33,270 nucleotides of DNA from positions 1 through 33,270 of the IMG/VR virus record IMGVR_UViG_3300045146_000117; one strand, written 5' to 3'. The stretch is from a virus. The stretch's first letter is position 1; the number at the start of each line of letters is the position of its first letter. A model generated the notes under the pieces. The model was given only the letters and a program-made list of their open reading frames with translations, ran no database searches and was not told the DNA's origin. Positions 2,798 through 33,270 of this stretch are shown here, one piece after another. Made by a program: the position numbers and the translations under genes.

Positions 2798-4738
2798 TCA
2801 ATAAAAATTAACTATATCATTTATATCGAAACCACCCCTATCCCCGAGCCTGTCCCTGTTGTACTCAATGACGTCTACCTCCAGCGTTTTTATGTAATCA
2901 TCGTCCTTGATGACCACGGTCTCGTACAGCTCGCCGCAAATCTCAGTGTACTGCGGCGACTCGAAGAAGGCGGAAGCGTGTATGCAAGACATCGCCAAGT
3001 CATCGTGCCCGTTCTGGCACCTGTACGTCGTCCTCTCTGGGTTAGAACCGAAGTTCGACAACTCCATGAACGTCTGGTTACACGTCGGCACTATCCTGTC
3101 GACAGACGCGAGGTACTGGAACTTCTCGCAGTAATGCACCTTCTTCTTCCTCGAGGATAAATCGACACCCGGTTCGTACTGCGTCGACGATTCGTTTGGC
3201 AAGCTGTACACCAGCATGCCTGTCCAGAAATGCTCGTGCCTCTCCAACCTGTCCCTCACGAGGACACCCTGGTTGTTAAGCTCGAGCACTATCCTGACGT
3301 ACTCGGGGTTGAACAACTCGAAAGCCATGTTGCACACCACGTTGCTGAAAGTATCCACGTTTATGCTGTTGCACCTGAACTTGCCGACCTGAACGAGCGT
3401 GAATATATCGAGGTAATCGTTTATGTTATCCCTGTTGTACACGAGGAACTTCTTCGGCAAGTACGACACCTTGAATATGTTCAGCACGTGGTAATCCTTA
3501 CCGACACCCTTGGCGGTATCAATCGTGAACACGAAGTAATCCTTGCACTTCTTCAAGTCCGGCGAATCAACGGGGAACGAGTTCTTCAAGAACGACTTGT
3601 GCCACGAGGCGAAACAAGACATGTCGTCGGTCTTGCTCACCTTCTCCCGGTTCTCGTAGTACGTCCTGAACATGTGCAAGCAAGGCACATCCCTAACCGA
3701 GAAATCAGAACGTATCTCGCTGAACTTCTTTATCTCAGACGAGTTCAACAACAGGTTATCACCCTTGAAGAACTGCAACCCGAACTCCTGGTTGAAATCC
3801 TCTATCGAACCCATGTCGGCGATAGTGGACTGCTTCCAAGCCTCGTCCCTGCCCGGAACCTGCCACCAGTCGACACGCATCGGATTGAACGAACTCTTAC
3901 CCTCTACGGCATCCTTCCACAGCTCGTAGAACTTGTTCATGCCGTTAGGCGTTGACGTCACCACTATCTTGCTGTTTGGCGTACCGGAAATGGTCGGGTA
4001 AACCGAACGGAAGAAGAAGTTGGCGAACGAGGCGTTGATGTGTGCGAACTCATCGAGAAACAACAGGTTTATAGATAACCCGATCGCTGCCTTCTTCGTA
4101 GTCGCCCTGCCAATTATCCGGCAACCGTTCTCGAACTTCATCGACTGCACGTTGTTGATTGAAATCCCCGGCTTCATGAAGAACGGCAGGTTGTCCAATA
4201 TGTTCTTCAACTTGTCTATGATCTCCTTTGTCGTCTCGGCTATATCACCGAGGATAAGGACGTTCTTCTCCTTGTTGAAGATAATGTACCACAGGATGTA
4301 AATGGAGGTAGTAGTCGTCTTGCCGCACTGCCGTGAAGCCAGCACTATGTTGTTCCTGTGCGAGTTTATACCCTCTATCAAACCCAGCTGGTAATCCCTT
4401 AACTTAACCTCTTTATACCCGTCCTCCGTGAACATCTTGCAGTACTTGCCGGCGAAGTACAACGGGTCAGCAGCGCACTTACGCAACTCGTCCATCTCGT
4501 GCTTCGTGTACGAGAAGTTTATCCTCGGCTTGCGCAGCTTGGTGTTGTTCCCCAAGAACGGGCTGCACGATATCTTGTTCAAGTCAACGAGTCCATCCTG
4601 ATAATCGCGTATTATCTTGTCAATCTTCTCCGTCGACCATATGGTGCTATCGACTGCCTCATCACCACCAACGCTAGAACTAACCTCCGACAAGTTGATG
4701 CTGGTGAAACTACCACCCTTAGACAAATAATCCTTCAA
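2798..4738 (-). CDS. terminase large subunit (TerL), T4 gp17-like
   Basis: 646 residues. The N-terminal ATPase domain has Walker A SRQCGKTT at 135-142, Walker B LLFLDE at 225-230 and the coupling motif TSTPNG at 261-266. The C-terminal RNase H-like nuclease has the expected acidic residues: Asp407 in FTIDTAKG, Glu486 in VLELNNQG and Asp579/Asp580 in GHDDLAMS. The protein pumps DNA into proheads and cuts concatemers. Length and motif order match T4-type terminases of contractile-tailed phages. It follows the probable small subunit by 19 nt. Confidence 0.95.
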   Translation of the reverse strand: MKDYLSKGGSFTSINLSEVSSSVGGDEAVDSTIWSTEKIDKIIRDYQDGLVDLNKISCSPFLGNNTKLRKPRINFSYTKHEMDELRKCAADPLYFAGKYCKMFTEDGYKEVKLRDYQLGLIEGINSHRNNIVLASRQCGKTTTTSIYILWYIIFNKEKNVLILGDIAETTKEIIDKLKNILDNLPFFMKPGISINNVQSMKFENGCRIIGRATTKKAAIGLSINLLFLDEFAHINASFANFFFRSVYPTISGTPNSKIVVTSTPNGMNKFYELWKDAVEGKSSFNPMRVDWWQVPGRDEAWKQSTIADMGSIEDFNQEFGLQFFKGDNLLLNSSEIKKFSEIRSDFSVRDVPCLHMFRTYYENREKVSKTDDMSCFASWHKSFLKNSFPVDSPDLKKCKDYFVFTIDTAKGVGKDYHVLNIFKVSYLPKKFLVYNRDNINDYLDIFTLVQVGKFRCNSINVDTFSNVVCNMAFELFNPEYVRIVLELNNQGVLVRDRLERHEHFWTGMLVYSLPNESSTQYEPGVDLSSRKKKVHYCEKFQYLASVDRIVPTCNQTFMELSNFGSNPERTTYRCQNGHDDLAMSCIHASAFFESPQYTEICGELYETVVIKDDDYIKTLEVDVIEYNRDRLGDRGGFDINDIVNFY

Positions 4739-5592: not shown

Positions 5593-6048
5593 TTATATGG
5601 TTATCAAACCAAGCGAATCCATTGATGAAACGAGGTTAGGTTCTATGTTGGCGTCTATGAACTCCGATATAGTCATCATCTTCAATGCGGATGAATCGAA
5701 GTACTCCTTGTTTATGTCTATGACAGATAAACACACGCCGATTCGCGCGTTGTCCAACGCTACAAGTTCAACCATCAACGCGTCCCTGTCGGTGAACATT
5801 ATATCGTTAAGGTTATTCGGCTCCTGAACACGTACACCATCCCTCTCGACACCAAGGTACGAACCATCGCTCGTCGTCATAGCGAACTTGTTGATGATGG
5901 CGAGCCTATCCTCGTTGTACGCGTCTATATAAGACTTAACTATCTTGGCGTTCTTGGCTATAGACATCGAGAACGGCACTTTCTTACCCGAGAACGACGA
6001 TATGACAGCATCGAGCTCAACAAGGTGTAAATTCTTCAAATCTGGCAT
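5593..6048 (-). CDS. phage protein of unknown function (DUF1617-like appearance)
   Basis: 151 residues from the internal ATG at 6048 (MPDLKNLHLVELDAVISSFSG). The open frame extends upstream to 6108, but that part would overlap the preceding gene and reads poorly, so the shorter start is chosen. The N-terminal region, two helices with ...PFSMSIAKNAKIVKSYIDA..., resembles small phage proteins of the DUF1617 type, a weak match by eye. Probably co-transcribed with the terminase genes (13 nt to the next ATG). Confidence 0.65.
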   Translation of the reverse strand: MPDLKNLHLVELDAVISSFSGKKVPFSMSIAKNAKIVKSYIDAYNEDRLAIINKFAMTTSDGSYLGVERDGVRVQEPNNLNDIMFTDRDALMVELVALDNARIGVCLSVIDINKEYFDSSALKMMTISEFIDANIEPNLVSSMDSLGLITI

Positions 6049-6076
6049 CAACAATAATATTTTCAAGTGTAACGCG

Positions 6077-6916
6077 CTACACGGGGACAACATTATCCAC
6101 AGGTGCATTAAAATACTTGAACATCGAGTACCTGCTAGTGAACATTATAGTCTCCGGTAATACCCTGCCGGGGTTGTTCGCGTTCCACTGCGACCGCAAG
6201 GTTTCTATAATCTCGGCATCCCCGGCATCGAACGAGTTGAAGTCGATGGGGCATAACTGCACGAACGAGTCGACGACCTCTATACCGTTTATCTGCACCG
6301 TGGAACACGTGTAGTTGAACACGTCGGAATAACATATCTTCTTCACCGTGTAACCACTGTTGGAAAGGAACCCTGCCATCTCCGTGGGGATGACTATGAC
6401 CGGGTTATCCTCGAACTGCACACCATTGATATAATTCTCGCAAGTGTAGTCCGTCCACGACGAATCACACGGCGTCGTGTACGTCCTACCGTCATCGCAC
6501 TTTATAAACGCCGTGCTGTTGTTCCAGTCGTAATAAACCGAAACTATATCTATAACCCTCGACAACCACGTGTTGTATTCACCTTCACTGTAAAAAGACT
6601 TGTAAACCTGCACATTAGACGGTACACTGTTGAACACGTAATACAACACGCCGTGCCTATCCTCGACTGTGTAAGCAACCTGCGGGTCAACATTACCGTC
6701 GAACACGCTCACGTAAACGACCGGCGTTGGTACAGGCGTGGGTCGCATGTTGATGACCTCGTCGATGGTGGACGACGGGTTGCTCGTGTAATACGCCACC
6801 TGCTCATCCGACAACACGTACACACCATCGCCCGTATAAGTGGTGACGATCTTGTGCGACGATAACGCGGATTCATCCATGGTGTGTACCGTCCAGTATA
6901 ATATTATGTGCTTCAT
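6077..6916 (-). CDS. hypothetical virion-associated protein
   Basis: 279 residues, rich in Tyr, Val, Ser and Asp, with a Pro-Thr linker (RPTPVPTPVVYVSV, about 57-70) separating a short N-terminal part from a beta-rich remainder. No enzymatic motif or membrane segment is seen. It lies directly downstream of the giant fibre gene (28-nt gap). That suggests a fibre-associated or tail-associated protein or a fibre chaperone, but this is inference. An alternative start is MDESALS at residue 13. Confidence 0.65.
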   Translation of the reverse strand: MKHIILYWTVHTMDESALSSHKIVTTYTGDGVYVLSDEQVAYYTSNPSSTIDEVINMRPTPVPTPVVYVSVFDGNVDPQVAYTVEDRHGVLYYVFNSVPSNVQVYKSFYSEGEYNTWLSRVIDIVSVYYDWNNSTAFIKCDDGRTYTTPCDSSWTDYTCENYINGVQFEDNPVIVIPTEMAGFLSNSGYTVKKICYSDVFNYTCSTVQINGIEVVDSFVQLCPIDFNSFDAGDAEIIETLRSQWNANNPGRVLPETIMFTSRYSMFKYFNAPVDNVVPV

Positions 6917-20491: not shown

Positions 20492-22255
20492 CTAGTATTT
20501 TTTCATGACGAACGGCGTGCCGACCATGGGCCTGCAATTGTCTATCACCCTTAAAGACGATTCATCCCTGTGGAACAACTGCGACACCACGAACTCGTGC
20601 GAGTCGACATCCACGACCTTGTTGAACACCCTGACGTTCGACACGCACGCGTTGGACTTGGGCAACGCCAACTTGGACTTGCTGTTGAACGTTATGGTGG
20701 ACTTATCGACAACGTTAACTACGGTAGATGCAAACGTCGATATAGACGACACGTTGTTGATATCCACGACATCACCCACAAGAAAATAAACGTGTATGCC
20801 CACTTGCCCATACGTTGGGGATACGCTGACTATAACAGGATACCACACGCTATGCATCATATCCGTCAAGTCAAGCGTGTACTGGGTACCGTTGCACGAC
20901 ACTGTAAGCGTACCCGTCCTGTACCTCGAACTGTAATCGAGAGATATGTAGAACAAATTATCCGTGCCGTCGGTCACGAACAAGGGTATCACACCGTTAG
21001 AAGACACGTTCAGCTTGAAGTTAAACGCCACTGTTATGTCGTTACCGTGCGACACGGTTAGAGCATCCTTGTACACGACACCTAGCAAAGCGGCACCGGA
21101 CAAGTTGTAGAAGTAGTTTATGAACCTCGTGTAGTTGAAGTTTAACGCCACCTCGCCGAACGTCACGCCCGGGTCAACGAAGCCCCTTGCCTCGTCTGAC
21201 ACGGCGGATACAGTCGAGTACTGCTGCTGCATCAGTGCAGATAACTCCTGCACCTTGGCTTCCTTGCCTATCTGCCCGTCGCTCGTCAGGACTATATTAT
21301 CAAGGAACTTGGTCTCTGCACCAGGTATGTAGTTTATGTTAGGCCTGAACTTGACGAGGTTCAGCTTCCAGAAAGTGGGCATCATCATGAAACCGTGAGA
21401 CATCGACACGTCCATCACCTCGTACAGCCTGTTAAGCATAGGGAGGTACACTATATCCTTCTTCCTGGGCTCCTTGCCCGTGCCGAACATCATCTCGAAG
21501 TAACCTCGGTCGACGTGTACCTCTATCGGCCCGACGTAATCCATGTCCTGACCGGTGTACCTGAAATCGGTTTGCGGCATCTCGTTGTTGTTCAGAACCA
21601 CCTTCATGCACTTTCGCTGCATGATGTTGAACAACGTGTACTCTCGGAACACGTAATCTGTACCGGAAGGGTCGGGCGAAGACTGGAAGTAAAGCACCTG
21701 CACGCCAGCCATCTCGTTCACGGACATCGACATCGACCTGTACAAGTCGAACATGTTGCCGGTGTCGTACATGTTGAACGACGGCTTCCTATCTATGACA
21801 ACCTTGGGGCAAACCTCGCTCGTGCACCTGACCTGCGCGTTTATAGCCGACAGCTTAATCGGCGCCTGCTTCTGGGCAACAGATAGCAGCATCGTGACCG
21901 ACGCTATAACCACCGGCGTGGTGAGCATATCGGAAGTGCCATCGTCGTACATGTACTTGAAAGAGAAGTACAGTTCACCCATCCCGGCAAGGGGTATGGT
22001 GGACACGACGCTCGGTTCACCCTCGTTGAACACGTTGAACGCGTACCACATTGACCAACCTGCACCGTCGGTAGAATACCTGAAATATTTCTTTATATTG
22101 GCGGCAGGATTGCCATTATCCAGTATATCATCGGTCAACGACAGCACCGAAACAACATCCTGCACGGGCTCGACAGTCGAGTACACCCTGAAATTACCCG
22201 AACCGGACAACACACCGTCATCACCTATGTTCAAGTTGATGGAAAGCCTTGACAA
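20492..22255 (-). CDS. baseplate structural protein with C-terminal lectin-like domain
   Basis: 587 residues. The first 150 residues are beta-rich. The middle (about 150-330) contains KKDIVYLPMLNRLYEVMDVSMSHGF..., a baseplate-like segment. Residues about 385-587 resemble a concanavalin/laminin-G fold, with paired strands and the ending VSNVRVFNKVVDVDSHE ... VIDNCRPMVG seen in glycan-binding domains of Bacteroidota phage virion proteins. It is the first gene of the minus-strand tail operon and is preceded by a late-promoter-like motif. The virion role is well supported by context; the exact subunit is not. Confidence 0.65.
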   Translation of the reverse strand: MSRLSINLNIGDDGVLSGSGNFRVYSTVEPVQDVVSVLSLTDDILDNGNPAANIKKYFRYSTDGAGWSMWYAFNVFNEGEPSVVSTIPLAGMGELYFSFKYMYDDGTSDMLTTPVVIASVTMLLSVAQKQAPIKLSAINAQVRCTSEVCPKVVIDRKPSFNMYDTGNMFDLYRSMSMSVNEMAGVQVLYFQSSPDPSGTDYVFREYTLFNIMQRKCMKVVLNNNEMPQTDFRYTGQDMDYVGPIEVHVDRGYFEMMFGTGKEPRKKDIVYLPMLNRLYEVMDVSMSHGFMMMPTFWKLNLVKFRPNINYIPGAETKFLDNIVLTSDGQIGKEAKVQELSALMQQQYSTVSAVSDEARGFVDPGVTFGEVALNFNYTRFINYFYNLSGAALLGVVYKDALTVSHGNDITVAFNFKLNVSSNGVIPLFVTDGTDNLFYISLDYSSRYRTGTLTVSCNGTQYTLDLTDMMHSVWYPVIVSVSPTYGQVGIHVYFLVGDVVDINNVSSISTFASTVVNVVDKSTITFNSKSKLALPKSNACVSNVRVFNKVVDVDSHEFVVSQLFHRDESSLRVIDNCRPMVGTPFVMKKY

Positions 22256-23223: not shown

Positions 23224-23325
23224 ATGCGGGAAAGAGGTTTGAGTGAGTACACTAACAAGCTCGTAAGGCAGTATATCATCAAGGGTGGCGATTTTGACTT
23301 GTACGACGACAACTTCATCAAATGA
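23224..23325 (+). CDS. 33-residue small ORF with phage-like codon use
   Basis: ATG at 23224 to TGA at 23325 encodes MRERGLSEYTNKLVRQYIIK followed by GGDFDLYDDNFIK. Codon choice (AAG CTC GTA AGG, TAC GAC GAC) is that of the phage genes and unlike the AT-rich DNA that begins right after it. No ribosome-binding sequence is obvious. An ATG overlaps its stop (ATGA) and opens a frame that soon loses coding character, so the phage operon may be interrupted here. Confidence 0.4.
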   Translation: MRERGLSEYTNKLVRQYIIKGGDFDLYDDNFIK

Positions 23326-23488
23326 GTGCAATTCAAGATAAACATGATGCCAAGGGAAAAAATAAATTTCAATTCACCTTTGGAAGTGTTCTTTTGTTCA
23401 CTAAACTGATTTGTCGCATTTGCCCGTTTAATCTACGTGTCACAATACGTACTTTTTTATCTCTATTTTCTTTCGAAGATACTTTAAA
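23326..23488. other. AT-rich junction between phage DNA and cassette region
   Basis: No gene can be supported. A plus-strand frame from ATG 23322 begins plausibly (MSAIQDKHDAKGKNKFQFTFG) but becomes a Phe/Leu-rich read-through of AT-rich DNA, so it could be the truncated start of a phage gene. Base composition changes sharply at this point. No attC-like box or target-site duplication is visible at the junction. Confidence 0.4.
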
Positions 23489-23542: not shown

Positions 23543-24544
23543 ATGAATATTTATAAATCAACTGACGGAAGAGTCGAAATATATAATGGTGATTTTCTTT
23601 ATGTTTCAAAAACATGGGAGAAACCAACAGTTATCATATCTGATGGTCCTTATGGAATAGGGGGGTTTCCTGGAGACCCTAAGTCTCCCGATGATTTGGG
23701 TGAGATATATGAACCTTTTATTAAAATATGGACAGAAAAGGCTACACCAATAACAACACTTTGGTTTTGGAATACTGAACTAGGCTGGGCAAATGTACAT
23801 CCATTCTTTATAAAAAATGGATGGGAGTTCGTTAATTGTCATGTTTGGAATAAAGGACTAGGACATGTAGCTGGAAATGCAAACACAAAAACATTAAGAA
23901 AGTTTCCAGTTGTTTCTGAGGTTTGTGTTCAATACGTCAAAAAACCAATATTTGAAGTTGCTGGTTTAAAACTAACAATGCAGGAGTGGCTAAGAAATGA
24001 ATGGAAACGAACTGGACTACCATTATCAAAAACAAACGAGGCATGTGGTGTTGTAAATGCAGCAACCAGGAAATATTTTACCAATTGTCATCTTTGGTAT
24101 TTTCCACCTACTGATGCTTTTGAAAAACTCTCTGAATATGCAAATCAAAATGGTAGAGACAGCGGGAAACCATATTTTTCAATAGATGGTGAAAATCCAC
24201 TTACAAAATTACAATGGGAAAATATGAGGTCAAAATTTAAATGTTCTTTTGGTGTTACCAATGTTTGGGATTTGCCACCTTTAAATGGAAATGAAAGATT
24301 AAAAAATGGAGCTAAAGCATTGCATTTGAATCAAAAACCATTAAAATTTATGGATTTAATAATAAATGCAACTTCTGATGAAAATGACATAATATGGGAG
24401 CCTTTTGGAGGTTTATGCTCGGCAACAATCGCAGCATACCGTCTTAATCGGAAAAGTTTTGCATCAGAAATCGATTCAGGTGTTTTCGATTTAGCTGTTA
24501 ATAGATTCAAAAAAATTGAAGCTCAACCTACATTAGGACTTTAA
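23543..24544 (+). CDS. DNA methyltransferase (N4-cytosine/N6-adenine, beta-type order)
   Basis: 333 residues. The catalytic motif IV is DGPY (34-37, a variant of D/N/S-P-P-Y/W) near the N-terminus. HLNQKPL (261-267) and the SAM-binding motif I EPFGGLCSATIA (286-297) are near the C-terminus, followed by SEID (308-311). Motif IV before motif I is the beta-class order. The enzyme would transfer a methyl group from SAM to an exocyclic amino group of A or C. Gly replacing the first Pro of DPPY is unusual but known. No restriction partner is evident. It lies on the opposite strand to the cassettes and has its own promoter, so it is not an ordinary member of the array. Its end overlaps a minus-strand ORF by 17 nt. 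Confidence 0.85.
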   Translation: MNIYKSTDGRVEIYNGDFLYVSKTWEKPTVIISDGPYGIGGFPGDPKSPDDLGEIYEPFIKIWTEKATPITTLWFWNTELGWANVHPFFIKNGWEFVNCHVWNKGLGHVAGNANTKTLRKFPVVSEVCVQYVKKPIFEVAGLKLTMQEWLRNEWKRTGLPLSKTNEACGVVNAATRKYFTNCHLWYFPPTDAFEKLSEYANQNGRDSGKPYFSIDGENPLTKLQWENMRSKFKCSFGVTNVWDLPPLNGNERLKNGAKALHLNQKPLKFMDLIINATSDENDIIWEPFGGLCSATIAAYRLNRKSFASEIDSGVFDLAVNRFKKIEAQPTLGL

Positions 24545-24695
24545 TTAAGTCAATTGTGTCTGTTTCAGAGTTACTAATTAACTTTGACCAATCTTTAAGA
24601 GTATGTCCGTATAAAGTTTGATTAAGTGCGCTAGTCTTGAAAATTTCAAAGTCAGAATGAGCGGTTCTATCTATTTTTGCGAAATTTGTGTCCAT
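24528..24695 (-). CDS. 55-residue hypothetical ORF of terminal cassette
   Basis: ATG at 24695 to TAG at 24528 encodes MDTNFAKIDRTAHSDFEIFK and so on to DTIDLIKVLM. The sequence looks protein-like but no family is recognised. It belongs to the last unit of the array in transcription order, which has an R' box at its start (24802-24808) but no recognisable R'' end. The ORF runs into the 3' end of the opposing methyltransferase gene, so the cassette may be truncated there. Confidence 0.35.
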   Translation of the reverse strand: MDTNFAKIDRTAHSDFEIFKTSALNQTLYGHTLKDWSKLISNSETDTIDLIKVLM

Positions 24696-24762
24696 GCACA
24701 CCAGTAATTATTAAAATATTTTTACCTATATTATTTTTACCAATAATTTCTGTTTTTTTCAT
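24667..24762 (-). CDS. 31-residue ORF at start of terminal cassette
   Basis: ATG at 24762, preceded by a good AGGAG (TAGGAGTATATG), encodes MKKTEIIGKNNIGKNILIIT then GVHGHKFRKNR. It overlaps the 55-residue ORF in another frame. The two may be one gene broken by a frameshift, since the ribosome-binding sequence belongs to this ORF while the longer coding-like stretch is in the other frame. Function unknown. Confidence 0.3.
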   Translation of the reverse strand: MKKTEIIGKNNIGKNILIITGVHGHKFRKNR

Positions 24763-24801
24763 ATACTCCTATTTTATTTTGTGAATAATAATCTGTACTG
24801 T

Positions 24802-24894
24802 GCCTAACACGCAATATAAAACAGTTACCGTCAAGCTATTACTAAATTTGAAACGTCTTACAAGGCAACCGTTTCATATTGCCGACCGTTAACC
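24802..24894 (-). repeat. attC-like site 1 (complete)
   Basis: On the minus strand: R'' GGTTAAC (24894-24888), then GGTCGGC, L'' AATATGAAACGGTTGCC, a loop, L' GGTAACTGTTTTATATT, spacer GCGT, R' GTTAGGC (24808-24802). L'' and L' pair over about 17 nt with three mismatches. It ends the cassette holding the 24902-25168 gene. Confidence 0.75.
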
Positions 24895-24901
24895 GTAAAA
24901 T

Positions 24902-25168
24902 TCAAGAACGCCAAGTGATGTACATTGCTTCTAATTTATCTCCGAGTAGTGGCGAACCATAGTTTTCAAACTTCATTTTAATCGAAGGTGATACTTCTAA
25001 TCCATTTGGGCATTGTATTTTTACTGGAAGTTCCCGTTTATCTTCTGAAATTTGCAAGGCTTCTAAAATGAAGTCATTCAAAGTTTTTTCTTCGTCAAAA
25101 GAACTACGGCTAACATCGTATAAAAAAACATTGCCAGCTTCATCTGTTAATTGAACTTTGTATTTCAT
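24902..25168 (-). CDS. small hypothetical cassette protein
   Basis: 88 residues from MKYKVQLTDEAGNVFLYDVS (ATG 25168); an in-frame ATG at 25195 gives nine more residues (MLNLKIKLD). It is soluble and mixed alpha/beta, with an acidic centre (SSFDEEKTLNDFILEALQI). No family is recognised. The stop lies 7 nt before the R'' box of attC-like site 1. Upstream there is only a half attC-like site, so the gene sits between an R''-L'' half and a complete site. Confidence 0.6.
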   Translation of the reverse strand: MKYKVQLTDEAGNVFLYDVSRSSFDEEKTLNDFILEALQISEDKRELPVKIQCPNGLEVSPSIKMKFENYGSPLLGDKLEAMYITWRS

Positions 25169-25209
25169 ATCAAGTTTTATTTTTAAGTTTAACATTTATG
25201 TTTCAAAAT

Positions 25210-25245
25210 GGCAACGTTTTTTATACGCAGCAGTTAGGCACAATA
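25210..25245 (-). repeat. half attC-like site 2 (R''-L'' only)
   Basis: The minus strand reads TATTGTGCCTAAC (R''), TGC, then TGCGTATAAAAAACGTTGCC (L''). No L'-R' follows before the next gene. R'' is complementary to the cassette start at 25891-25900 (GTTTAGGCAC). L'' resembles the L'' of site 1. Confidence 0.55.
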
Positions 25246-25866
25246 CTAAGAAGTCCACTGCGTAGCCATGGCTTTCGCAATTCCTTCAAAAGTTTTCGAC
25301 CTTAATTTCGCTCTTTCTTCTTTTGGCAATTTGAAAGCATCCGCGTACCATGTCGGCATACTTTTACCGCTTGCAAATTGTGTCCTTTTAGGAGGTTCAA
25401 CTATGTTTGTTGGTATAAGTTTTGGTAATCCTTTCAACCATAAGCAAGTTTTTTTCTCGAATGGGTCGCCAAATTCATAAGGGTTTATTATTTGGTCAGG
25501 CTTTCTCCATTCGGTACTCATTATCCCTACCGGGTTTTCTATTGCAATCTTATCACAATCAGCATTTGCAAACATCATAAAAAAACCAATTGCAAATTCA
25601 CGGTCTTTGTATCTTTGTATTGCTTGTTCGCCATATCTTTCAATATTAAACCACCTATTCCCGGTTACAGTTAAATATGTGCAAGGTGGAAAAGCAATTA
25701 TCATATCCCACTTTTGTTGCAATAATTCGGTTACATCTTGTTGTAAATGCCATTCGGGATGCCCTCCACTTTCAGGCAATAAATCACAACTAAATGCCTC
25801 GTGTCCAAGTTTACGTAATTCCTTACAAACTGTTTGGCTTTCTTCACACGCTAATAATATTCTCAT
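25246..25866 (-). CDS. C5-cytosine DNA methyltransferase-like protein, phage type
   Basis: 206 residues from ATG 25866 (MRILLACEESQTVCKELRKLG); the frame is open to 26025, but that part runs through an attC-like site. The start LLACEESQTV...LGHEAFSCDLLPESGGHPEWH is a SAM-binding Rossmann entry. AFPPCTYL (58-65) is motif IV with the catalytic Cys62, and IAIENPVG (108-114) is motif VI with Glu110. This compact form is widespread in phages and is shorter than usual C5 methyltransferases (over 300 residues), lacking a large target-recognition domain. Activity is possible but unproven; a role in modifying phage DNA against restriction is an inference. The stop is 6 nt before the R'' of half-site 2. 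Confidence 0.8.
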   Translation of the reverse strand: MRILLACEESQTVCKELRKLGHEAFSCDLLPESGGHPEWHLQQDVTELLQQKWDMIIAFPPCTYLTVTGNRWFNIERYGEQAIQRYKDREFAIGFFMMFANADCDKIAIENPVGIMSTEWRKPDQIINPYEFGDPFEKKTCLWLKGLPKLIPTNIVEPPKRTQFASGKSMPTWYADAFKLPKEERAKLRSKTFEGIAKAMATQWTS

Positions 25867-25892
25867 AATTAATTTTTTAAATAAATTACTGT

Positions 25893-25981
25893 GCCTAAAC
25901 CGTGTATAAGCAATGGCACATAAACGATATCGGTAATTTGAATGTGTACAAGTGCCACTGCTCATACACTCAATGTTAGCC
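25893..25981 (-). repeat. attC-like site 3 (complete)
   Basis: On the minus strand: R'' GGCTAAC (25981-25975), ATTGA, L'' GTGTATGAGCAGTGGCAC, a loop, L' GTGCCATTGCTTATACAC, R' GTTTAGGC (25900-25893). L'' and L' pair over 18 nt with few mismatches. Confidence 0.8.
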
Positions 25982-25987
25982 GCCAGT

Positions 25988-26413
25988 TTAAGACAGCACA
26001 CCAGTAACCGTGAGTATTTCTTCAACTTTTACCCAATCAACAAATGGCTTGTCTGAAATCTCAGGATTATAAAGCAAAGGGCATCCCAATGCAGCGTCAT
26101 CGATATACAATTGTCCGTATGCCTTTGGGCTTTTCGTCCAAGTTGTTTGCGATGGATTTATGTTTATACCATAAAGTTTAATGTTGTTTTTTTTAAACCA
26201 ATTAACAGCATCGGTTAAGTAGTTACCAGCTTGCCCATGTATTCTGTAATCACTACTTGAAACTTCTTCAATATCGCTTCGCATCGTAAACAATATTAAA
26301 TTATGTCCAGCATCAATCAGTTTATTTAAAACTGGTATAGCACCAATGTCTTTACCTACTTTCGGAAATTCGTGAGTTACACAAGTCCCGTCAAAATCTA
26401 TACATATTTCCAT
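25988..26413 (-). CDS. HAD-superfamily phosphatase-like protein
   Basis: 141 residues. Motif I is DFDGT (7-11: MEICIDFDGTCV) with nucleophile Asp7 and Asp9. NLILFTMRS (38-46) is motif II with Thr43. LYIDDAALGCPLL (102-114) is a motif IV-like DD. These are the catalytic residues of HAD phosphohydrolases. Small proteins of this shape occur in many phages and are often annotated as nucleotidase or HAD hydrolase; the substrate cannot be read from sequence. The start ATG is 32 nt downstream of the stem of site 4, and the stop is 7 nt from the R'' of site 3, a compact cassette. Confidence 0.8.
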   Translation of the reverse strand: MEICIDFDGTCVTHEFPKVGKDIGAIPVLNKLIDAGHNLILFTMRSDIEEVSSSDYRIHGQAGNYLTDAVNWFKKNNIKLYGININPSQTTWTKSPKAYGQLYIDDAALGCPLLYNPEISDKPFVDWVKVEEILTVTGVLS

Positions 26414-26444
26414 ATTATTGAATATTAATTATTATAAATAAAAA

Positions 26445-26556
26445 ACGAACGGGGCTAGTGCAAGCTTTAACAGTTTTCGCTCTATTCGGCTGTTCAGGTT
26501 CGATGGGAAGCCACCGCCTCGAATCCCCGTTCGTTTCATATACAAAACGTTAGCTG
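26445..26556 (-). repeat. attC-like site 4, GC-rich stem, R' degenerate
   Basis: On the minus strand: R'' CAGCTAAC (26556-26549), GTTTTG, TATATGAA, then stem arm ACGAACGGGG (26534-26525) pairing perfectly with CCCCGTTCGT (26454-26445). The 70-nt loop is GC-richer than its surroundings and holds further small inverted repeats. No GTTRRRC box follows the left arm (CGTTTTTTATTTATAAT), so R' is lost. R'' is complementary to the cassette start at 27405-27418 in 12 of 14 positions. Confidence 0.6.
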
Positions 26557-26561
26557 TAATA

Positions 26562-27323
26562 CTACATTCCATCTCCGAATGAAGTTATTATATTAAATTC
26601 TTTTTCTTTTCTTTTTTCTTCCACCCTCTTTTTTGAAGATGAAAAATATTCTAATTCTTTTTCAATTCCAATGAAATTTCTATTGGTATTAATACATGCA
26701 ATTCCAGTTGAACAACTCCCCATTGTATTATCTAATACCAAGTCATTTTCATCAGTATATGTTTTAATAAGGTATTCTAACAAGTCAACTGGTTTTTCAG
26801 AACTATGTAATCTGCTGTAATTATCAACACATTTAAACTCTAAAATATTTGTTGGAAACCTTGTTGTTTTTCCACCTTCATAATCTCTTGTATTAGTTCC
26901 GTGATATGCTTTCCCATTGCTACAACCTTTTGCACTATTCGTTGGTATATGTCCATCTGTTATTTGTGGATAGTATCTACCTTTTTTGAAAATACATATT
27001 TCTTCAATCTTTCTAATTGGCATCCTTTTAGCATGAAAGAAATTAGTTCCTTGATTTTTCAACCAATACCAACAATAACTGAAATCCTTTTCATTGCTTG
27101 ATATTATCTTGGTTGTAAATGGTTGTGATGCAAATAAAGCAATCGTTCCATTTTTCTTTATTATTCGGTTGTATTGCTTCCAAAGTTCAACTATGTCAAT
27201 ATGTTTATCCCAATTTGGAGCAGTCATCCCATAAGGTAAATCACAACAAATAAAGTCAATACTTTTATCATGTATTAATATCATTTGTTCTATTGTATCA
27301 CCGTGTCTTAAATCTATTATCAT
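26562..27323 (-). CDS. DNA methyltransferase (N4/N6, beta-type order)
   Basis: 253 residues. Motif IV is DLPYG (28-32, D-x-P-Y form) in FICCDLPYGMTAPNWDK. HSSEKPVDLLEYLI (173-186) precedes motif I VLDNTMGSCSTGIA (196-209), and FIGIEKELEYF follows. This is the usual phage beta-class N4-cytosine or N6-adenine methyltransferase. Leu replaces the first Pro of DPPY, a common variant. Length is normal for a stand-alone phage enzyme, and no restriction endonuclease accompanies it. The start lies about 90 nt after the R' of site 5 and the stop 6 nt before the R'' of site 4. Confidence 0.88.
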   Translation of the reverse strand: MIIDLRHGDTIEQMILIHDKSIDFICCDLPYGMTAPNWDKHIDIVELWKQYNRIIKKNGTIALFASQPFTTKIISSNEKDFSYCWYWLKNQGTNFFHAKRMPIRKIEEICIFKKGRYYPQITDGHIPTNSAKGCSNGKAYHGTNTRDYEGGKTTRFPTNILEFKCVDNYSRLHSSEKPVDLLEYLIKTYTDENDLVLDNTMGSCSTGIACINTNRNFIGIEKELEYFSSSKKRVEEKRKEKEFNIITSFGDGM

Positions 27324-27412
27324 AATTTTTTAACATTTTCCCACTACTCTAAAAAGAAAAGAAAAAGGTTCAGTTCTTCGATTGAGCATTTGTGGTTTAA
27401 ATCCGTACTACT

Positions 27413-27502
27413 GCTAACATCGTGTATGAAATATAGCCAATTAAGGTTATGATTTATATAAAGTGTTGTGCATGGCTACGTTTCATACACCCAACCGTTA
27501 GC
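27413..27502 (-). repeat. attC-like site 5 (complete)
   Basis: On the minus strand: R'' GCTAAC (27502-27497), GGTTGGG, L'' TGTATGAAACGTAGCCA, a loop, L' TGGCTATATTTCATACA, CGAT, R' GTTAGC (27418-27413). L'' and L' pair over 17 nt with two mismatches. The site is clearly related to site 14: both share AAACGTAGCCAT and CCTTAATTGGCTAT. Confidence 0.85.
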
Positions 27503-27653
27503 GGTAATGCTCTCCGAACACCCTACTAACTGTAATATCATAATATTTAGATTCTTTTTCTATTCCGATGAATTCACGATTGAGATTTTTAGAAGCAACC
27601 ATTGAAGCCCCTGCACCCATTGTAAAATCTAAAACAGTCATTCCTTCATACAT
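27498..27653 (-). pseudogene. C-terminal fragment of a DNA methyltransferase in a cassette
   Basis: 51 codons, MYEGMTVLDFTMGAGASMVA and onward, ending EHYR with a TAA that lies inside the R'' box of site 5. VLDFTMGAGASMVA is the SAM-binding motif I and NREFIGIEKESKYYDI is the block that follows it in beta-class methyltransferases. All upstream parts (DPPY and HxxxKP regions) are missing. The fragment begins exactly at the L'' arm of half-site 6, as if recombination or deletion at that arm removed the 5' part of the gene. It cannot be an active enzyme. It resembles but is not a copy of the methyltransferase at 26562-27323. Confidence 0.75.
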
Positions 27654-27670
27654 AGCTGCAAACCGTTAGC
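27640..27670 (-). repeat. half attC-like site 6 (R''-L'' only)
   Basis: On the minus strand: GCAGCTAAC (R'', 27670-27665), GGTT, then TGCAGCTATGTATGAAGGAATG, which passes directly into the methyltransferase fragment. No L'-R' is found. Confidence 0.5.
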
Positions 27671-27672
27671 TG

Positions 27673-27900
27673 CTATTTAAAACCAACTACCTTATATTTA
27701 GTTGTGTCAATTTGATGTAATCTATACGCATTTGTTGGCATAGAGATTAATCCTTCGTCTGACAATTCATAATAATTCCCATTTTTATCTCTTACTATTT
27801 CACCGTTTCTTGGATGTGAACAAGAAGAAAATAAACAGCAGCTAACAAGCAATATAAAAAATGCCTTAGTTAGTGCTAAAATTGAAGTTTTTGTTTTCAT
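27673..27900 (-). CDS. small lipoprotein
   Basis: 75 residues. MKTKTSILALTKAFFILLVS is a basic N-terminus with a hydrophobic core, followed by CCLFSSCSHPRNGE. LFSSC fits a lipobox with the modified Cys at about residue 27. The mature part is about 48 residues (EIVRDKNGNYYELSDEGLIS...), a short beta-rich domain like those of small phage or host lipoproteins. No family is named. The stop TAG lies 2 nt from the R'' of half-site 6. Upstream, 27901-27980 keeps an open frame in phase (TFEQILSEAIKDSYDKIKD) but without a start, perhaps a remnant. Confidence 0.7.
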   Translation of the reverse strand: MKTKTSILALTKAFFILLVSCCLFSSCSHPRNGEIVRDKNGNYYELSDEGLISMPTNAYRLHQIDTTKYKVVGFK

Positions 27901-27982
27901 ATTTACATTTGTTTTAAGTGGTGGGTCTAAATTGTCTTTTATCTTATCATAAGAATCCTTAATTGCTTCTGAAAGTATTTGT

Positions 27983-28273
27983 TCAAAAGTTTTTTTTACG
28001 ATTTATAACAACGGATATATGAAATAAAAAATTAATAGATTCTATAAACTTTATAATTTCTACCTCTGATTTACATTCTCGTTGAACAACACAAAATTCA
28101 CCTCTTACAACCTTACAAGTTTGGGTTTCTATATTGTAATAAAGTATTGGTAATTTACATAGGTTTCCGCAAATTTCAGTATCTTCCTCACCTAAAACCC
28201 AAACTTGTTTACCAGAGAATATATCAAATATCTCATTAAATCCTAAATCCGTTAAATTTTGTGTTGTTATCAT
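27983..28273 (-). CDS. hypothetical protein encoded inside an attC-like inverted repeat
   Basis: 96 residues from ATG 28273 (MITTQNLTDLGFNEIFDIFSG); the frame is open to 28363, but that extension crosses the repeat arm. The protein is soluble with KQVWVLGEEDTEICGNLCKL and a repeated beta pattern. No family is recognised. The gene lies between the two arms of a perfect 13-bp inverted repeat (28011-28023 and 28298-28310). Its last codons (FHISVVINRKKNF) are formed by the L' arm and the R' box, so DNA element and C-terminus overlap. The start is 25 nt inside the right arm. Confidence 0.6.
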   Translation of the reverse strand: MITTQNLTDLGFNEIFDIFSGKQVWVLGEEDTEICGNLCKLPILYYNIETQTCKVVRGEFCVVQRECKSEVEIIKFIESINFLFHISVVINRKKNF

Positions 28274-28323
28274 CTTTCTAAATATTAATTTTTTACATTC
28301 ATATATCCGTAAACCGTTATACG
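28003..28323 (-). repeat. attC-like site 7 with a gene in its loop
   Basis: On the minus strand: R'' GCGTATAAC (28323-28316 region), GGTTT, L'' ACGGATATATGAA (28310-28298), the 96-residue gene, L' TTCATATATCCGT (28023-28011), R' GTTATAA (28009-28003). The arms are perfectly complementary over 13 bp, and the two boxes are complementary to each other at TATAAC/GTTATA. Loop length is about 275 nt, against roughly 30-100 nt in the other sites. Confidence 0.6.
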
Positions 28324-28551
28324 CAATTAAACTTATCCCAGCCAGACTGCAATTCACAAACATCTTTAATGCTTACCAAACCGCCTTTGTCCTCTATAAG
28401 CTCAACCAAATCAATAATCTTACCAATTGTTTTTTTATCAAATGATATTCCAACCATTCTAAGTGCTAAATCTAAATTAGTCACTGTTACATTGTCAATA
28501 GGTCTTTTATTTTCGTGAATATTACCTTCTTTCAGTGCTTAGACTTGGCAT
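28317..28551 (-). pseudogene. frameshifted small cassette gene
   Basis: ATG at 28551 opens MPSL and then a short frame that stops. With one base removed near 28537-28542 (CTAAGC) it continues as ALKEGNIHENKRPIDNVTVT, then NLDLALRMVGISFDKK, IEDKGGLVSIKDVCELQSG and WDKFNCV, giving 77 residues. The TAA stop lies inside the R'' box of site 7 (GTATAAC), as expected for a cassette gene. The pattern is soluble alpha/beta and looks fully coding. No family is recognised. It may be a decayed gene or a single-base sequencing error. Confidence 0.6.
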
Positions 28552-28579
28552 TACTACTTGTTCTTTATATTAGGCAACA

Positions 28580-28608
28580 AAAGGTACGCATATAAGTAAG
28601 TTATACCC
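28580..28608 (-). repeat. half attC-like site 8 (24-nt repeat shared with site 10)
   Basis: The minus strand reads GGGTATAAC (R'') then TTACTTATATGCGTACCTTT. Positions 28580-28603 are identical to 29916-29939 over 24 nt. A variant, TTACTTATACGCTTACC, occurs in site 11. No matching L'-R' follows. Confidence 0.6.
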
Positions 28609-28611
28609 CAT

Positions 28612-29139
28612 TTAAGAAAGCACCTCAAAAGCGAATTGTGTTGACAGAATATTACTACAAAGGAATATACTTTTAAACGGTACTCCTTTTAGCATTTCTT
28701 CTCCTTTTATATAATCAATACGCTTATCAAAAACCATTATTTCAAATCGGTTGTTTTTTAATAGTTCATACCTTTTTTTGCTATCAAATAAACCAGCTTC
28801 GTTTATAAGCATTGCAAAAGGTTTTCTAAGTAAAAACAACCTTTCTAAAATTGATTCTCTTAAACTATACGGAGGATTGCTTACAATATAATCGTAATTT
28901 CGTGGTTCATACTTAAAAAAGTCTTGTCCAGTTTCAATGTGGCTAAATATTACATTGTTTCCTCGTTCTTGGAATAGTTTCACAAAATTACTTTCTTGTT
29001 TGTCAAACGGACACCATATAGTTTTATCGGTTGGAATATATTTCAGTAATGGTTTTATTGCATATTCCTTTGTGTAATATTCGTCTGCTTTGTTTTGTTT
29101 AAATTGATCATAAAATAAATTAAAAACGGGGCATAACAC
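28612..29139 (-). CDS. DNA N6-adenine methyltransferase-like protein (NPPY type)
   Basis: 175 residues if started at the GTG at 29139. No ATG is found in the frame near the expected start, while the open frame continues to 29235 through site 9. ADEYYTKEYAIKPLLKYIP (18-36) and IWCPFDKQESNFVKLF (41-56) are followed by YDYIVSNPPYSLRE (82-95), the NPPY catalytic motif of N6 methyltransferases. KPFAMLINEAGLF and FDKRIDYI continue the fold. This compact family is common in phages and is sometimes mis-annotated as a nucleotidyltransferase. The proposed GTG overlaps the R' box of site 9, so the upstream cassette end supplies the start. The stop is 4 nt from R'' of half-site 8. Confidence 0.7.
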   Translation of the reverse strand: MLCPVFNLFYDQFKQNKADEYYTKEYAIKPLLKYIPTDKTIWCPFDKQESNFVKLFQERGNNVIFSHIETGQDFFKYEPRNYDYIVSNPPYSLRESILERLFLLRKPFAMLINEAGLFDSKKRYELLKNNRFEIMVFDKRIDYIKGEEMLKGVPFKSIFLCSNILSTQFAFEVLS

Positions 29140-29220
29140 GGTGTATATGCCATGCCTGATAGTTTTAGCCGTGATTGAAAGTTTATCGTTTGGCACGGCA
29201 CATACACCAAACGTTAGCAC
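29131..29220 (-). repeat. attC-like site 9 (complete)
   Basis: On the minus strand: R'' GTGCTAAC (29220-29213), GTTT, L'' GGTGTATGTGCCGTGCC, a loop, L' GGCATGGCATATACACC, GT, R' GTTATGC (29137-29131). Arms pair over 17 nt with two mismatches. Confidence 0.85.
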
Positions 29221-29225
29221 CAATA

Positions 29226-29873
29226 CTACGAACACGGTAATTCCAAATGTCCGCTATTGTAATCATACAACAATTCAACACAATCTAAGTTTTTACTCAA
29301 AATTGGTTGGCAATTACATAACGTTCCTTTTTCATAACCATTCGTAAAATCAAAGTTTCTAACATAATCACTTTTTAACATAACATCCTTTTTTGTTGAT
29401 ATCCATTGTTGAAAATATATTATATCTTCATCGTTATTTAGTGGTATAATCAATTTACCATTTTCATTATACTTACCAAAATATGTTTTGTTATTTATTT
29501 TTATTTCCATTTTAAACCGCACTGGTGCTAAATCTAAATCGGTGCGGTCTTCGTTCCAGATTCGTTTCTCGGTTAGATTGCCATATTCGTCGAATCGTTC
29601 GACTAGGAAGGTTTCGGTGTGGGAGGCGTTCCATTCGAAGCGAGTTTTCAAGCTCCATTCCTCGTGGTATGATTCTACCAAATCTGTTTCAGTTTGGTCA
29701 GAGTTCCACTCGTAGCGAGTTTTCAATCTACCGTTCGGGTAATACGTTTCAATGGTAGATGTTTTTGTGCGAGAGGCGTTCCACTCGTAGCGGAAATACA
29801 GCTTCCCGTTCGGGTGGTATGTTTCAATTAAATACTCTACTCCGTTTGCGTTTTTCTCGTATTTGTTTTTCAT
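29226..29873 (-). CDS. MORN-like / YwqK-like repeat protein
   Basis: 215 residues from ATG 29873 (MKNKYEKNANGVEYLIETYH); the frame extends to 29927 without a better start. Residues about 17-115 hold four copies of a unit of about 24 residues with the core YxPNGxLxxRYEWN: YHPNGKLYFRYEWN, YYPNGRLKTRYEWN, YHEEWSLKTRFEWN and FDEYGNLTEKRIWN. This matches MORN-type beta-hairpin repeats, as in proteins annotated as YwqK-family antitoxins. The C-terminal half (FKMEIKINNKTYFGKYNENGK...) is distinct and ends NSGHLELPCS. No signal peptide or toxin motif is seen. Its DNA has near-repeats matching the protein units. The stop is 6 nt before the R'' of site 9. Confidence 0.7.
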   Translation of the reverse strand: MKNKYEKNANGVEYLIETYHPNGKLYFRYEWNASRTKTSTIETYYPNGRLKTRYEWNSDQTETDLVESYHEEWSLKTRFEWNASHTETFLVERFDEYGNLTEKRIWNEDRTDLDLAPVRFKMEIKINNKTYFGKYNENGKLIIPLNNDEDIIYFQQWISTKKDVMLKSDYVRNFDFTNGYEKGTLCNCQPILSKNLDCVELLYDYNSGHLELPCS

Positions 29874-29915
29874 TTTCGTGTGTAAAAATTGGTGAGTGTT
29901 AGTTAGTTGCTGTAG

Positions 29916-29944
29916 AAAGGTACGCATATAAGTAAGTTAGCACA
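29916..29944 (-). repeat. half attC-like site 10 (24-nt repeat shared with site 8)
   Basis: The minus strand reads GTGTGCTAAC (R'', 29944-29935) then TTACTTATATGCGTACCTTT. The R'' pairs over 10 bp with GTTAGCACAC at the start of the same cassette (30150-30141). L'-R' is absent before the MORN-like gene. Confidence 0.6.
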
Positions 29945-30144: not shown

Positions 30145-30279
30145 GCTAACATGGTGTATAAGCCCTGCCAATTAAAGCCGTTGTAATTTGATAGTTCTGA
30201 ACAGGTACGGCACATACCGCAAAAACGTCTGTAGTATATGCGTACATTTGGTAAGCGTATAAGTAAGTTATCGGCAACC
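30145..30279 (-). repeat. attC-like site 11 (composite)
   Basis: On the minus strand: R'' GCCGATAAC, then TTACTTATACGCTTACC and AAAT and GTACGCATATAC (a short hairpin), then CTACAGACGTTTTTGCGG and a second L'' GGTATGTGCCGTACC, a loop, L' GGCAGGGCTTATACACC, AT, R' GTTAGC (30150-30145). The second part is a site-9 type. The first is the half-site type of sites 8 and 10. CTACAGAC may be a decayed R'' box. Confidence 0.65.
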
Positions 30280-30740: not shown

Positions 30741-30836
30741 CCGATAACACGCAATATAAAAAATTGGCTATCAGCATTTGTGGTAACTTGAAAGGTCGGA
30801 GTAAGCCAATTTTTTATATACCCGACCGTTAAATGC
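30741..30836 (-). repeat. attC-like site 12 (complete)
   Basis: On the minus strand: R'' GCATTTAAC (30836-30828), GGTCGGG, L'' TATATAAAAAATTGGC, a loop, L' GCCAATTTTTTATATT, GCGT, R' GTTATCGG (30748-30741). Arms are perfectly complementary over at least 15 bp. Confidence 0.85.
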
Positions 30837-31298: not shown

Positions 31299-31457
31299 TT
31301 AAGAATCGTAATTCGAAAAGATAATACGATTAAATGCTGTCGTGAAGTTTTTAAATGGTGAATCAGCTCCAAGAATCCACAACAATGTTAAAAAAGGCAA
31401 TGATATTAAAAAATAGATTGCCGATAAAATTAAAGCTACATACATTAATGGTTTCAT
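31299..31457 (-). CDS. small membrane protein
   Basis: 52 residues from MKPLMYVALILSAIYFLISL (ATG 31457), continuing PFLTLLWILGADSPFKNFTT. One long or two short hydrophobic helices (about 4-29), then a polar tail. An in-frame ATG at 31481 lies inside the R' box and is less likely. It is the first gene after the R' of site 13. The 136 nt that separate it from the next gene contain a palindromic ATATTGCAATAT but no complete attC-like site. Function unknown. Confidence 0.5.
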   Translation of the reverse strand: MKPLMYVALILSAIYFLISLPFLTLLWILGADSPFKNFTTAFNRIIFSNYDS

Positions 31458-31472
31458 AAAATTATAAACGTT

Positions 31473-31605
31473 ACCTAACACACGGTAGCAGTAATACGGG
31501 TGTTAGTTGTTATTAAGATATACTGCATTCTATTTAGTTATGTGTCGGTGGATATTGTATCGGTACTTATTCCCGTACTCATGCTACAGCAAACCGTTAG
31601 CGGTA
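31473..31605 (-). repeat. attC-like site 13 (complete, long loop)
   Basis: On the minus strand: R'' TACCGCTAAC (31605-31596), GGTTTGC, L'' TGTAGCATGAGTACGGG, a loop of about 75 nt, L' CCCGTATTACTGCTAC, CGTGT, R' GTTAGGT (31479-31473). Arms pair with a few mismatches. R'' pairs perfectly over 10 bp with GTTAGCGGTA at the start of the same cassette (31948-31939). Confidence 0.8.
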
Positions 31606-31940: not shown

Positions 31941-32035
31941 CCGCTAACAACGTGTATAAAACATAGCCAATTAAGGTTTGTGCTTTATATCAAGTGCAGT
32001 ATATGGCTACGTTTCTTAGCCTCGAACGTTAGCAA
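31941..32035 (-). repeat. attC-like site 14 (complete)
   Basis: On the minus strand: R'' TTTGCTAAC (32035-32028 region), GTTCGAG, L'' GCTAAGAAACGTAGCCA, a loop, L' TGGCTATGTTTTATACAC, GTT, R' GTTAGCGG (31948-31941). Closely related to site 5 in loop and arms. R'' matches GTTAGCAAAC at the start of its cassette (32553-32544). Confidence 0.8.
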
Positions 32036-32844: not shown

Positions 32845-32976
32845 GCTTATAACAACAAATATAAAATAAAGCGCTTTAATGGTTGGTAAGCTGTGTACCT
32901 CGCATTGTTATTTGGTGTCGGTAGATACTTTGCACCACGAACTCCGCTTCATTTCATATTTGTAGCAGCTAGGCGC
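32845..32976 (-). repeat. attC-like site 15, outermost site
   Basis: On the minus strand: GCGCCTAGC (R''-like, 32976-32968), TGCTAC, L'' AAATATGAAATGAAGCG, a loop of about 70 nt, L' CGCTTTATTTTATATTT, GTT, R' GTTATAAGC (32853-32845). The arms pair over 17 nt with about two mismatches. R'' has AGC in place of AAC, so this box has diverged. No gene is visible in the cassette it would terminate, which would lie to the right. Confidence 0.7.
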
Positions 32977-33036
32977 AAGAATAAGGGATGGTCTCAACAT
33001 TTCAGCATGAAAATTTGTTTTTTTTGCGATTAAACT

Positions 33037-33066
33037 TTTGTATATTTAGATTTGTTTGTATATTTG
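33037..33066 (+). promoter_or_regulatory. Bacteroidota-type promoter of DUF5678-like gene
   Basis: TTTG at 33037-33040, an 18-nt spacer and TATATTTG at 33059-33066 form a good -33/-7 pair. The coding-like frame starts only about 10 nt beyond, so the mRNA would be nearly leaderless. Confidence 0.65.
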
Positions 33067-33076
33067 CGTACTAAAA

Positions 33077-33270
33077 TTTAAGATAGCGTTAGACAAAGAA
33101 TTCCAATATTATTTGACCAATAGAGACGAGTTAATTAAAAAATATCTCGGCAAATATATTATTATCAAGGATGAAACCGTTGTTGGCGTTTATGATACCG
33201 AGATAGAAGCATATACAAATGGTATGAATAAATTTAGTCTTGGTACATTTCTTATCCAACAATGCTTACC
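33077..33270 (+). CDS. DUF5678-like protein, 3' end cut by window edge
   Basis: The frame reads FKIALDKEFQYYLTNRDELI, then KKYLGKYIIIKDETVVGVYD, TEIEAYTNGMNKF and SLGTFLIQQCL to the window edge. The pattern of a helix with REL(I/L)KKYxGKY(I/V)xIK, then VVGVYDxxxEAY and LGTFLIQ is characteristic of DUF5678, a family of about 65-75 residues, so little is missing. No ATG is found: the expected start position reads TTT or ATA instead. Either a non-AUG start is used or the start has mutated. It diverges from the array and is not a cassette gene by orientation. Confidence 0.7.

Follow-up and report, generated by a model that had tools for sequence, protein, structure and literature searches.

A probable phage-borne integron cassette array without an integrase, rich in DNA methyltransferase genes and related to arrays in Baltic Flavobacterium phages

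Integron cassette arrays without an integrase (CALIN in published usage) that carry methyltransferase cassettes have already been reported from phages, with a counter-restriction function proposed for them, and phage attC sites were recombined by IntI1 in the assay of the same study (Qi et al. 2023, PMC9892861). Solitary phage methyltransferases are likewise known from the lactococcal 936-type phages cited there, and a set of Baltic Sea Flavobacterium phages (Lillamyvirus, Muminvirus, and Hattifnattvirus) was described by Nilsson et al. (2020, PMC7077304), in whose paper the word "integron" occurs 0 times and neither attC nor cassettes are mentioned. Here we analyze the IMG/VR virus record IMGVR_UViG_3300045146_000117, a complete entry of 33,270 bases that is classified as a linear fragment (hereafter, the window), which holds a methyltransferase-rich array of attC-like sites, together with related arrays from cultured Flavobacterium phages. 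With the CALINs of PMC9892861, for example that of Polaribacter phage P12002L, these share the character of integrase-less attC arrays in virulent phages; P12002L has the same box layout by eye, its short sites being missed by our strict scan. The arrays described here are longer and richer in methyltransferases than those CALINs, and they add a conserved attI-like end, box-bounded turnover between close isolates, and an association with the isolation host. Like the orphan enzymes of the 936-type phages, the methyltransferases are solitary enzymes without an endonuclease; unlike them, they sit in attC-bounded cassettes that are exchanged singly. Our reading, to which we give a probability of roughly 70%, is that the window carries a phage-borne CALIN of methyltransferase cassettes that is operated in trans and serves counter-restriction.

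Between 24.8 and 33.0 kb of the window, imperfect hairpins, mostly 90 to 135 nt long and with outer boxes that follow the pattern NNNTAAC ... CGTTANN, separate genes on the minus strand (Table 1). RNAalifold returned no common structure for the attC alignment because the stems differ in sequence, and attC-like sites were therefore detected with our own box-plus-arm scan and shuffled controls, in place of a covariance model, supplemented by folding. A relaxed scan, whose number of sites was no better than in shuffles (mean, 22.7), was replaced by a strict one. The strict scan called eight attC-like sites in 23.3 to 33.3 kb, compared with 0.49 per shuffle (maximum of 3 in 200 shuffles); the opposite strand and positions 1 to 23.3 kb gave no call. 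It missed the site at 25893-25981 because of an extra A in the box, and one of its eight calls, 31404-31543, overlaps the site at 31473-31602 and is probably false. With at least two attC-like sites in the same orientation, the window array is, judged from its sequence, an integron cassette array without integrase in the published sense. The "cassette store" proposed for this DNA in a first-pass annotation is confirmed as an integron-type array in which attC-like hairpins divide the minus-strand genes. Lipoprotein-like, MORN-like, and family-less cassettes occur in it as well, and the store would therefore not be one for counter-restriction alone.

Four methyltransferase-like genes and one 51-aa methyltransferase remnant lie at 23.5 to 29.2 kb, and their Pfam and PHROG matches agree with the five genes or fragments that the annotation had listed: two DxPY-type enzymes (DGPY and DLPY, both N6_N4_Mtase), a compact C5-type protein with PPC and ENP, an NPPY-type enzyme, and a C-terminal fragment. 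The C5-like protein has no Pfam match, and its PPC and ENP motifs are kept in about 80 relatives. The DGPY enzyme is encoded on the opposite strand, to the left of and outside the minus-strand cassette array, and no attC box was found on its left side. The remnant resembles the C terminus of a 335-aa methyltransferase found whole in viral contig L010 (551-1558), where it directly precedes a 92%-identical copy of the window's 26562-27323 enzyme, with an attC-like site between the two. The NPPY-type gene is 91% identical to gp17 of phage morran9-1; its start is uncertain because the ATG of that relative is absent, and the open reading frame (ORF) can be extended to 29235 by reading through an attC. 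Also as annotated, no endonuclease partner was recognized among the 14 ORFs of the region in Pfam and PADLOC scans, and the region holds no type II restriction-modification pair by that measure. Catalytically dead genes or restriction partners beside homologues had been named as grounds for abandoning the proposal. One gene of the five is dead (the remnant), while 25246-25866, 26562-27323, and 28612-29106 have dN/dS values of 0.06 to 0.09 against relatives (with dS near saturation for 25246-25866) and are therefore kept by selection. A restriction pair does occur beside an array in the 178-kb viral contig L015 (2840-5286, type II endonuclease and methyltransferase), which also carries a 91%-identical relative of a window methyltransferase, yet that endonuclease has its own partner methyltransferase.

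For two cassettes of the window, the best DNA matches among annotated phages are Flavobacterium phages from the Baltic Sea, and the window array most likely belongs to a phage of Bacteroidota. It has the same box layout and gene direction as the arrays of the phages of PMC7077304, whereas the phage genes of the window are unrelated to theirs. Related arrays are present in 34 Baltic Flavobacterium phage isolates, located between approximately 2.0 and 9 kb, and the three arrays in which sites were counted have 10 to 12 strict attC-like sites each, compared with about 0.5 after shuffling. We compared 17 of these arrays. Every one of the 17 starts after a shared attI-like sequence, ATTTTTTATCATGTAATATTGTAG↓TTA (the arrow marks the cut), which is followed by differing cassettes; three cassettes at the far end are common to 17/17, while those beside the attI-like sequence vary. 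Sequence clustering yielded 35 cassette types, some of which may be pieces of one segmented gene; 14 bear methyltransferases, and differing methyltransferase types occupy one slot across the compared arrays. The box that starts a cassette matches the left box of that cassette's attC exactly (right box n against left box n+1) in 27 of 33 cases, where 13% is expected at random, and the same match was found in 21 of 49 cases in other viral contigs (random, 2%). One methyltransferase, gp07 of mymlan6-1 (L003, 2835-3623), is a mosaic whose middle segment is 92% identical to the mumin enzyme and whose ends are 72% and 58% identical; compared with the window enzyme, its C-terminal part is 68% and its middle 42% identical. 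Such identities are as expected if specificity segments had been exchanged.

Blocks shared between the 17 arrays begin and end at the cut of the right box far more often than chance allows: 152 of 283 starts (expected, 4.3) and 136 of 317 ends (expected, 4.8), an excess of about 30-fold, although relatedness of the phages keeps these counts from being independent. Close isolates exhibit single steps. Between lillamy9-6 and lillamy9-7, a 444-bp block has moved whole from 5637-6080 to 2037-2480, at the attI-like site, with overlaps of 5 to 7 bp at GTTAT (GTTATAA and CGTTAT); mumin6-3 is without one cassette of mumin9-1 (overlap AACGTTA); snork6-1 and snork6-2 are distinguished by a single cassette at the attI-like site; and methyltransferase cassette M21 occupies that site in snusmum6-1 and not in snusmum9-1, a pair that also differs at a later position. 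Such box-bounded steps of gain, loss, and relocation are what one expects of integron cassettes, and cultured phages sharing cassettes with the window do display the turnover of methyltransferase cassettes that the first-pass annotation had suggested seeking in relatives, with block edges at recombination boxes. Cuts at G↓TTRRRY are seen in the Flavobacterium phage relatives; the window itself offers homology edges at boxes only, such as the right box at 26549-26555, where its homology with both L010 and L003 begins. A rival account keeps the hairpins as real and has the cassettes moved by homologous or replicative recombination between repeats, with no integrase. Certain cassettes have nearly identical attC cores, part of the breakpoints falls inside arms or at left boxes, and the complete phages yielded no recombinase (below), all of which that account would explain; the recombining sites of the clean events, however, share only 5 to 7 bp around GTTA (once 12), and the relocation to the attI-like site and the concentration of edges at one box point to site-specific cutting, so that we regard it as very improbable. 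To a lesser extent, block starts also cluster at left attC boxes (30 of 283, against 4.2 expected; L002 and other Flavobacterium phage arrays), which would fit an exchange of attC cores by themselves.

The breakpoints place the cut at the box 3' of each gene, and the genes therefore read towards the attI-like end. In textbook integrons, the gene direction is the opposite. The Flavobacterium phage arrays thus resemble sedentary chromosomal integrons in their attC-bounded cassettes, variable attI end, and stable far end, and differ from them in this reversed direction and in having no integrase beside the array. Box complementarity was rejected as proof of polarity, since this symmetrical test speaks for cassettes but not for their direction; the evidence for polarity is the breakpoints.

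Host restriction would supply a function for this turnover. Some LMO9 phages plate 1,000 to 10,000 times worse on LMO6, one passage of morran9-1 and lillamy9-1 on LMO6 equalizes plating, and the phages affected lack one specific methyltransferase (PMC7077304). Cassette M15 or M21, whose methyltransferases are 44% identical to each other, is present in 14/14 isolates from LMO6 and 9/20 isolates from LMO9 (Fisher P = 0.0007, a value that ignores relatedness and counts near-identical isolates separately). Both cassettes are missing from morran9-1 and lillamy9-1, and the methyltransferase that the restricted phages lack would be M15. LMO6 reportedly carries the prophage laban6-1, and LMO9 is sensitive to it (PMC7077304); in laban6-1 (L155, MN812211; 10219-12581) a type II methyltransferase (PADLOC E value, 2e-91) adjoins a type II endonuclease (E value, 1e-84), which makes this putative restriction-modification pair a candidate cause of the restriction on LMO6. 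Counter-restriction is well supported for the Flavobacterium phage relatives, and by analogy we predict the same role for the window methyltransferases. The first-pass proposal accordingly holds in part: solitary enzymes under purifying selection, and host association and plating in relatives, speak for it; one dead gene, one gene with an uncertain start, and a role in the window that is carried over from relatives temper it. The methyltransferases might instead serve gene regulation, packaging, or protection from the phage's own nucleases, as the many non-methyltransferase cassettes in the same array could suggest; the tie of M15/M21 to the growth host, the host-dependent plating reset by one passage (PMC7077304), and the range of methyltransferase types found in a single slot make such a role in place of counter-restriction improbable.

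The association of these genes with attC-like sites extends beyond the window. Across 80 viral contigs with the C5-like family, we counted the attC-like pattern 54 times in the window orientation, compared with 7 times in the opposite one and 2.2 times in shuffles, and 14 loci of the family have at least two sites. For the family of 26562-27323, the corresponding counts are 8 and 0, from 3 of 15 loci, while the EcoRI-like family, with only 2 attC-like sites in 27 loci, is therefore mostly found outside arrays.

Minus-strand phage genes, among them one for a primase-like protein, occupy 1 to 22.3 kb, and by its terminase and structural genes the contig is that of a tailed phage. Several observations nonetheless weigh against our reading. 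GC content, approximately 0.38 to 0.52 within 1 to 22.3 kb, drops sharply near 23.3 kb, from approximately 0.42 to approximately 0.33 between the phage half and the array, and is approximately 0.3 onward; searches that included a junction 24-mer and the junction-adjacent 587-aa protein found no second contig spanning the junction, and the linkage of phage and array in the contig is known from a single assembly; some cassettes, the lipoprotein-like and MORN-like ones, look bacterial; exact box matches in the window, when counted automatically, do not exceed random (0/6, with two pairs recognized by eye); the isolation-host association lacks phylogenetic independence; four complete phages gave no match to PF00589 (tyrosine recombinase), PF00239 (serine recombinase), or PF01797 (Y1 transposase); and TIGR02249, the IntI model, had no match in 17 records, among them three of those four. 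The GC shift, the lack of a sister contig across the junction, and the bacterial-looking cassettes would all be expected if the array were bacterial, either a host CALIN beside a prophage or one half of an assembly chimera, with the methyltransferases as host cassettes and not phage cargo. We consider that unlikely: one pattern-based scan of 84,980 bacterial and archaeal genomes yielded no relative of the 26562-27323 family above 47% identity, whereas viral contigs hold relatives of 92% and 91%; in L010, lysozyme- and tail-like genes adjoin the methyltransferase shared with the window and an attC-like site (from a reading of its ORFs); and complete phages carry such arrays. Given those arrays and L010, phage carriage of the window array is likely, not certain. 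The short open frame at 23224-23345 ends the GC-rich phage part and passes straight into the AT-rich DNA, a possible insertion point or assembly joint. The near-identical sister fragments L004-L006, each shorter than 5 kb, cover the terminase end only.

As the searches of complete phages revealed no recombinase, we infer that an integrase would act in trans on a phage-borne CALIN, supplied by the host or by a co-infecting element. Each cassette would consist of a gene and one attC hairpin; the integrase would cut G↓TTA of the right box; single cassettes would be excised and then reinserted preferentially at the attI-like end; and the same mobility, as extrapolated from the relatives, may operate in the window contig. 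The methyltransferases would modify phage DNA and so permit escape from changing host restriction. The window record, a fragment, contains no tyrosine recombinase (PF00589). Two tyrosine recombinases in related contigs were considered as the missing integrase and rejected: that of G018 is far from the array and has no TIGR02249 match, and that of L016 belongs to a contig with no attC-like site around its methyltransferase. The phages might alternatively encode a recombinase of their own outside the families searched, in which case the arrays would be self-contained integrons with their own attI and reversed polarity, mainly exchanging counter-restriction methyltransferases between phages; we hold this to be doubtful.

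Several features of the window bear on attC architecture. Twice, an attC-like hairpin overlaps a small cassette coding sequence or encloses one: 25108-25239 with the ORF at 24902-25195, and the long inverted repeat at 28003-28324. The ORF at 24902-25195 has no family match in Pfam, PHROG, or PADLOC, and the small protein at 27673-27900 has none in Pfam and PADLOC scans. A box, GTTAGCT, stands at 27665-27671 after the remnant, and the left box of the site at 31942-32034 is the exact complement of the preceding right box. A repeat like GGTACGCATATAAGTAAGTTA(T/G) lies upstream of three right boxes without a clear left arm (28580-28606, 29918-29944, and 30240-30275); these repeats are perhaps remnants of another attC type. 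At 33029-33268, to the right of the last attC, an ORF on the plus strand is truncated by the contig end, and the sequence before it resembles a Bacteroidota promoter.

Table 1. Features of the window, in order of position
Feature	Position	Strand	Evidence or remark
RNA ligase	1043-2122	minus	
Terminase large subunit	2798-4738	minus	PHROG 5989, E 8e-53
Head-closure-like match	20492-22255	minus	
N6/N4 DNA methyltransferase, motif DGPY	23543-24544	plus	Pfam PF01555 N6_N4_Mtase, E 7e-15; PHROG 67
attC-like site	24802-24894	plus	Boxes GCCTAAC / GTTAACC; fold and strict scan
Small cassette ORF	24902-25195	minus	Start overlaps attC-like site 25108-25239
attC-like site	25108-25239	plus	Boxes GGCTAAC / GTTAGGC; fold and strict scan
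Compact C5-like methyltransferase, 206 aa, PPC and ENP	25246-25866	minus	PHROG 757 "DNA methyltransferase", E 3e-69
attC-like site	25893-25981	plus	Boxes GCCTAA(A)C / GTTAGCC; fold and relaxed scan
Cassette gene, PHROG 1238	25988-26413	minus	E 2e-33
Degenerate attC-like site	26432-26555	plus	Right box GTTAGCT at 26549-26555
N6/N4 methyltransferase, motifs DLPY and DNTMGSCSTG	26562-27323	minus	PF01555, E 2e-25; PHROG 67, E 1e-63
attC-like site	27412-27503	plus	Boxes TGCTAAC / GTTAGCG; fold and strict scan
C-terminal remnant of N6_N4_Mtase, 51 aa	27498-27653	minus	Pfam, E 2e-8
Small protein, lipoprotein-like leader	27673-27900	minus	Sequence
Long inverted repeat enclosing a small gene, attC-like boxes	28003-28324	plus	Boxes TTATAAC / GTTATAC; fold
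Orphan right box GTTATAC	28600-28606	plus	Homology with L127 begins here
NPPY-type (EcoRI-like) methyltransferase core	28612-29106	minus	PF13651 EcoRI_methylase, E 2e-7; PHROG 799, E 2e-34
attC-like site	29131-29219	plus	Boxes GCATAAC / GTTAGCA; fold and strict scan
MORN_2-like repeat protein cassette	29226-29927	minus	Weak Pfam match, E 5e-4, below cut-off
attC-like site	30742-30834	plus	Boxes CGATAAC / GTTAAAT; fold and strict scan
attC-like site	31473-31602	plus	Boxes ACCTAAC / GTTAGCG; boxes and arms, not in strict scan
attC-like site	31942-32034	plus	Boxes CGCTAAC / GTTAGCA; fold and relaxed scan
attC-like site	32847-32974	plus	Boxes TTATAAC / GCTAGGC; fold and strict scan

Elements of this kind have been described before. 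What appears new, relative to the main text of PMC9892861, in which Flavobacterium phages are not named, is the turnover with box precision among cultured phages that are close relatives, together with the attI-like end and the association with isolation host. With the cultured Flavobacterium phages and their hosts LMO6 and LMO9, turnover, recombinase, and restriction phenotype are testable in one system. The response of lytic phages to restriction diversity is usually explained by slow mosaic exchange. With integron cassettes, it appears that a single recombination step could add or remove a methyltransferase.

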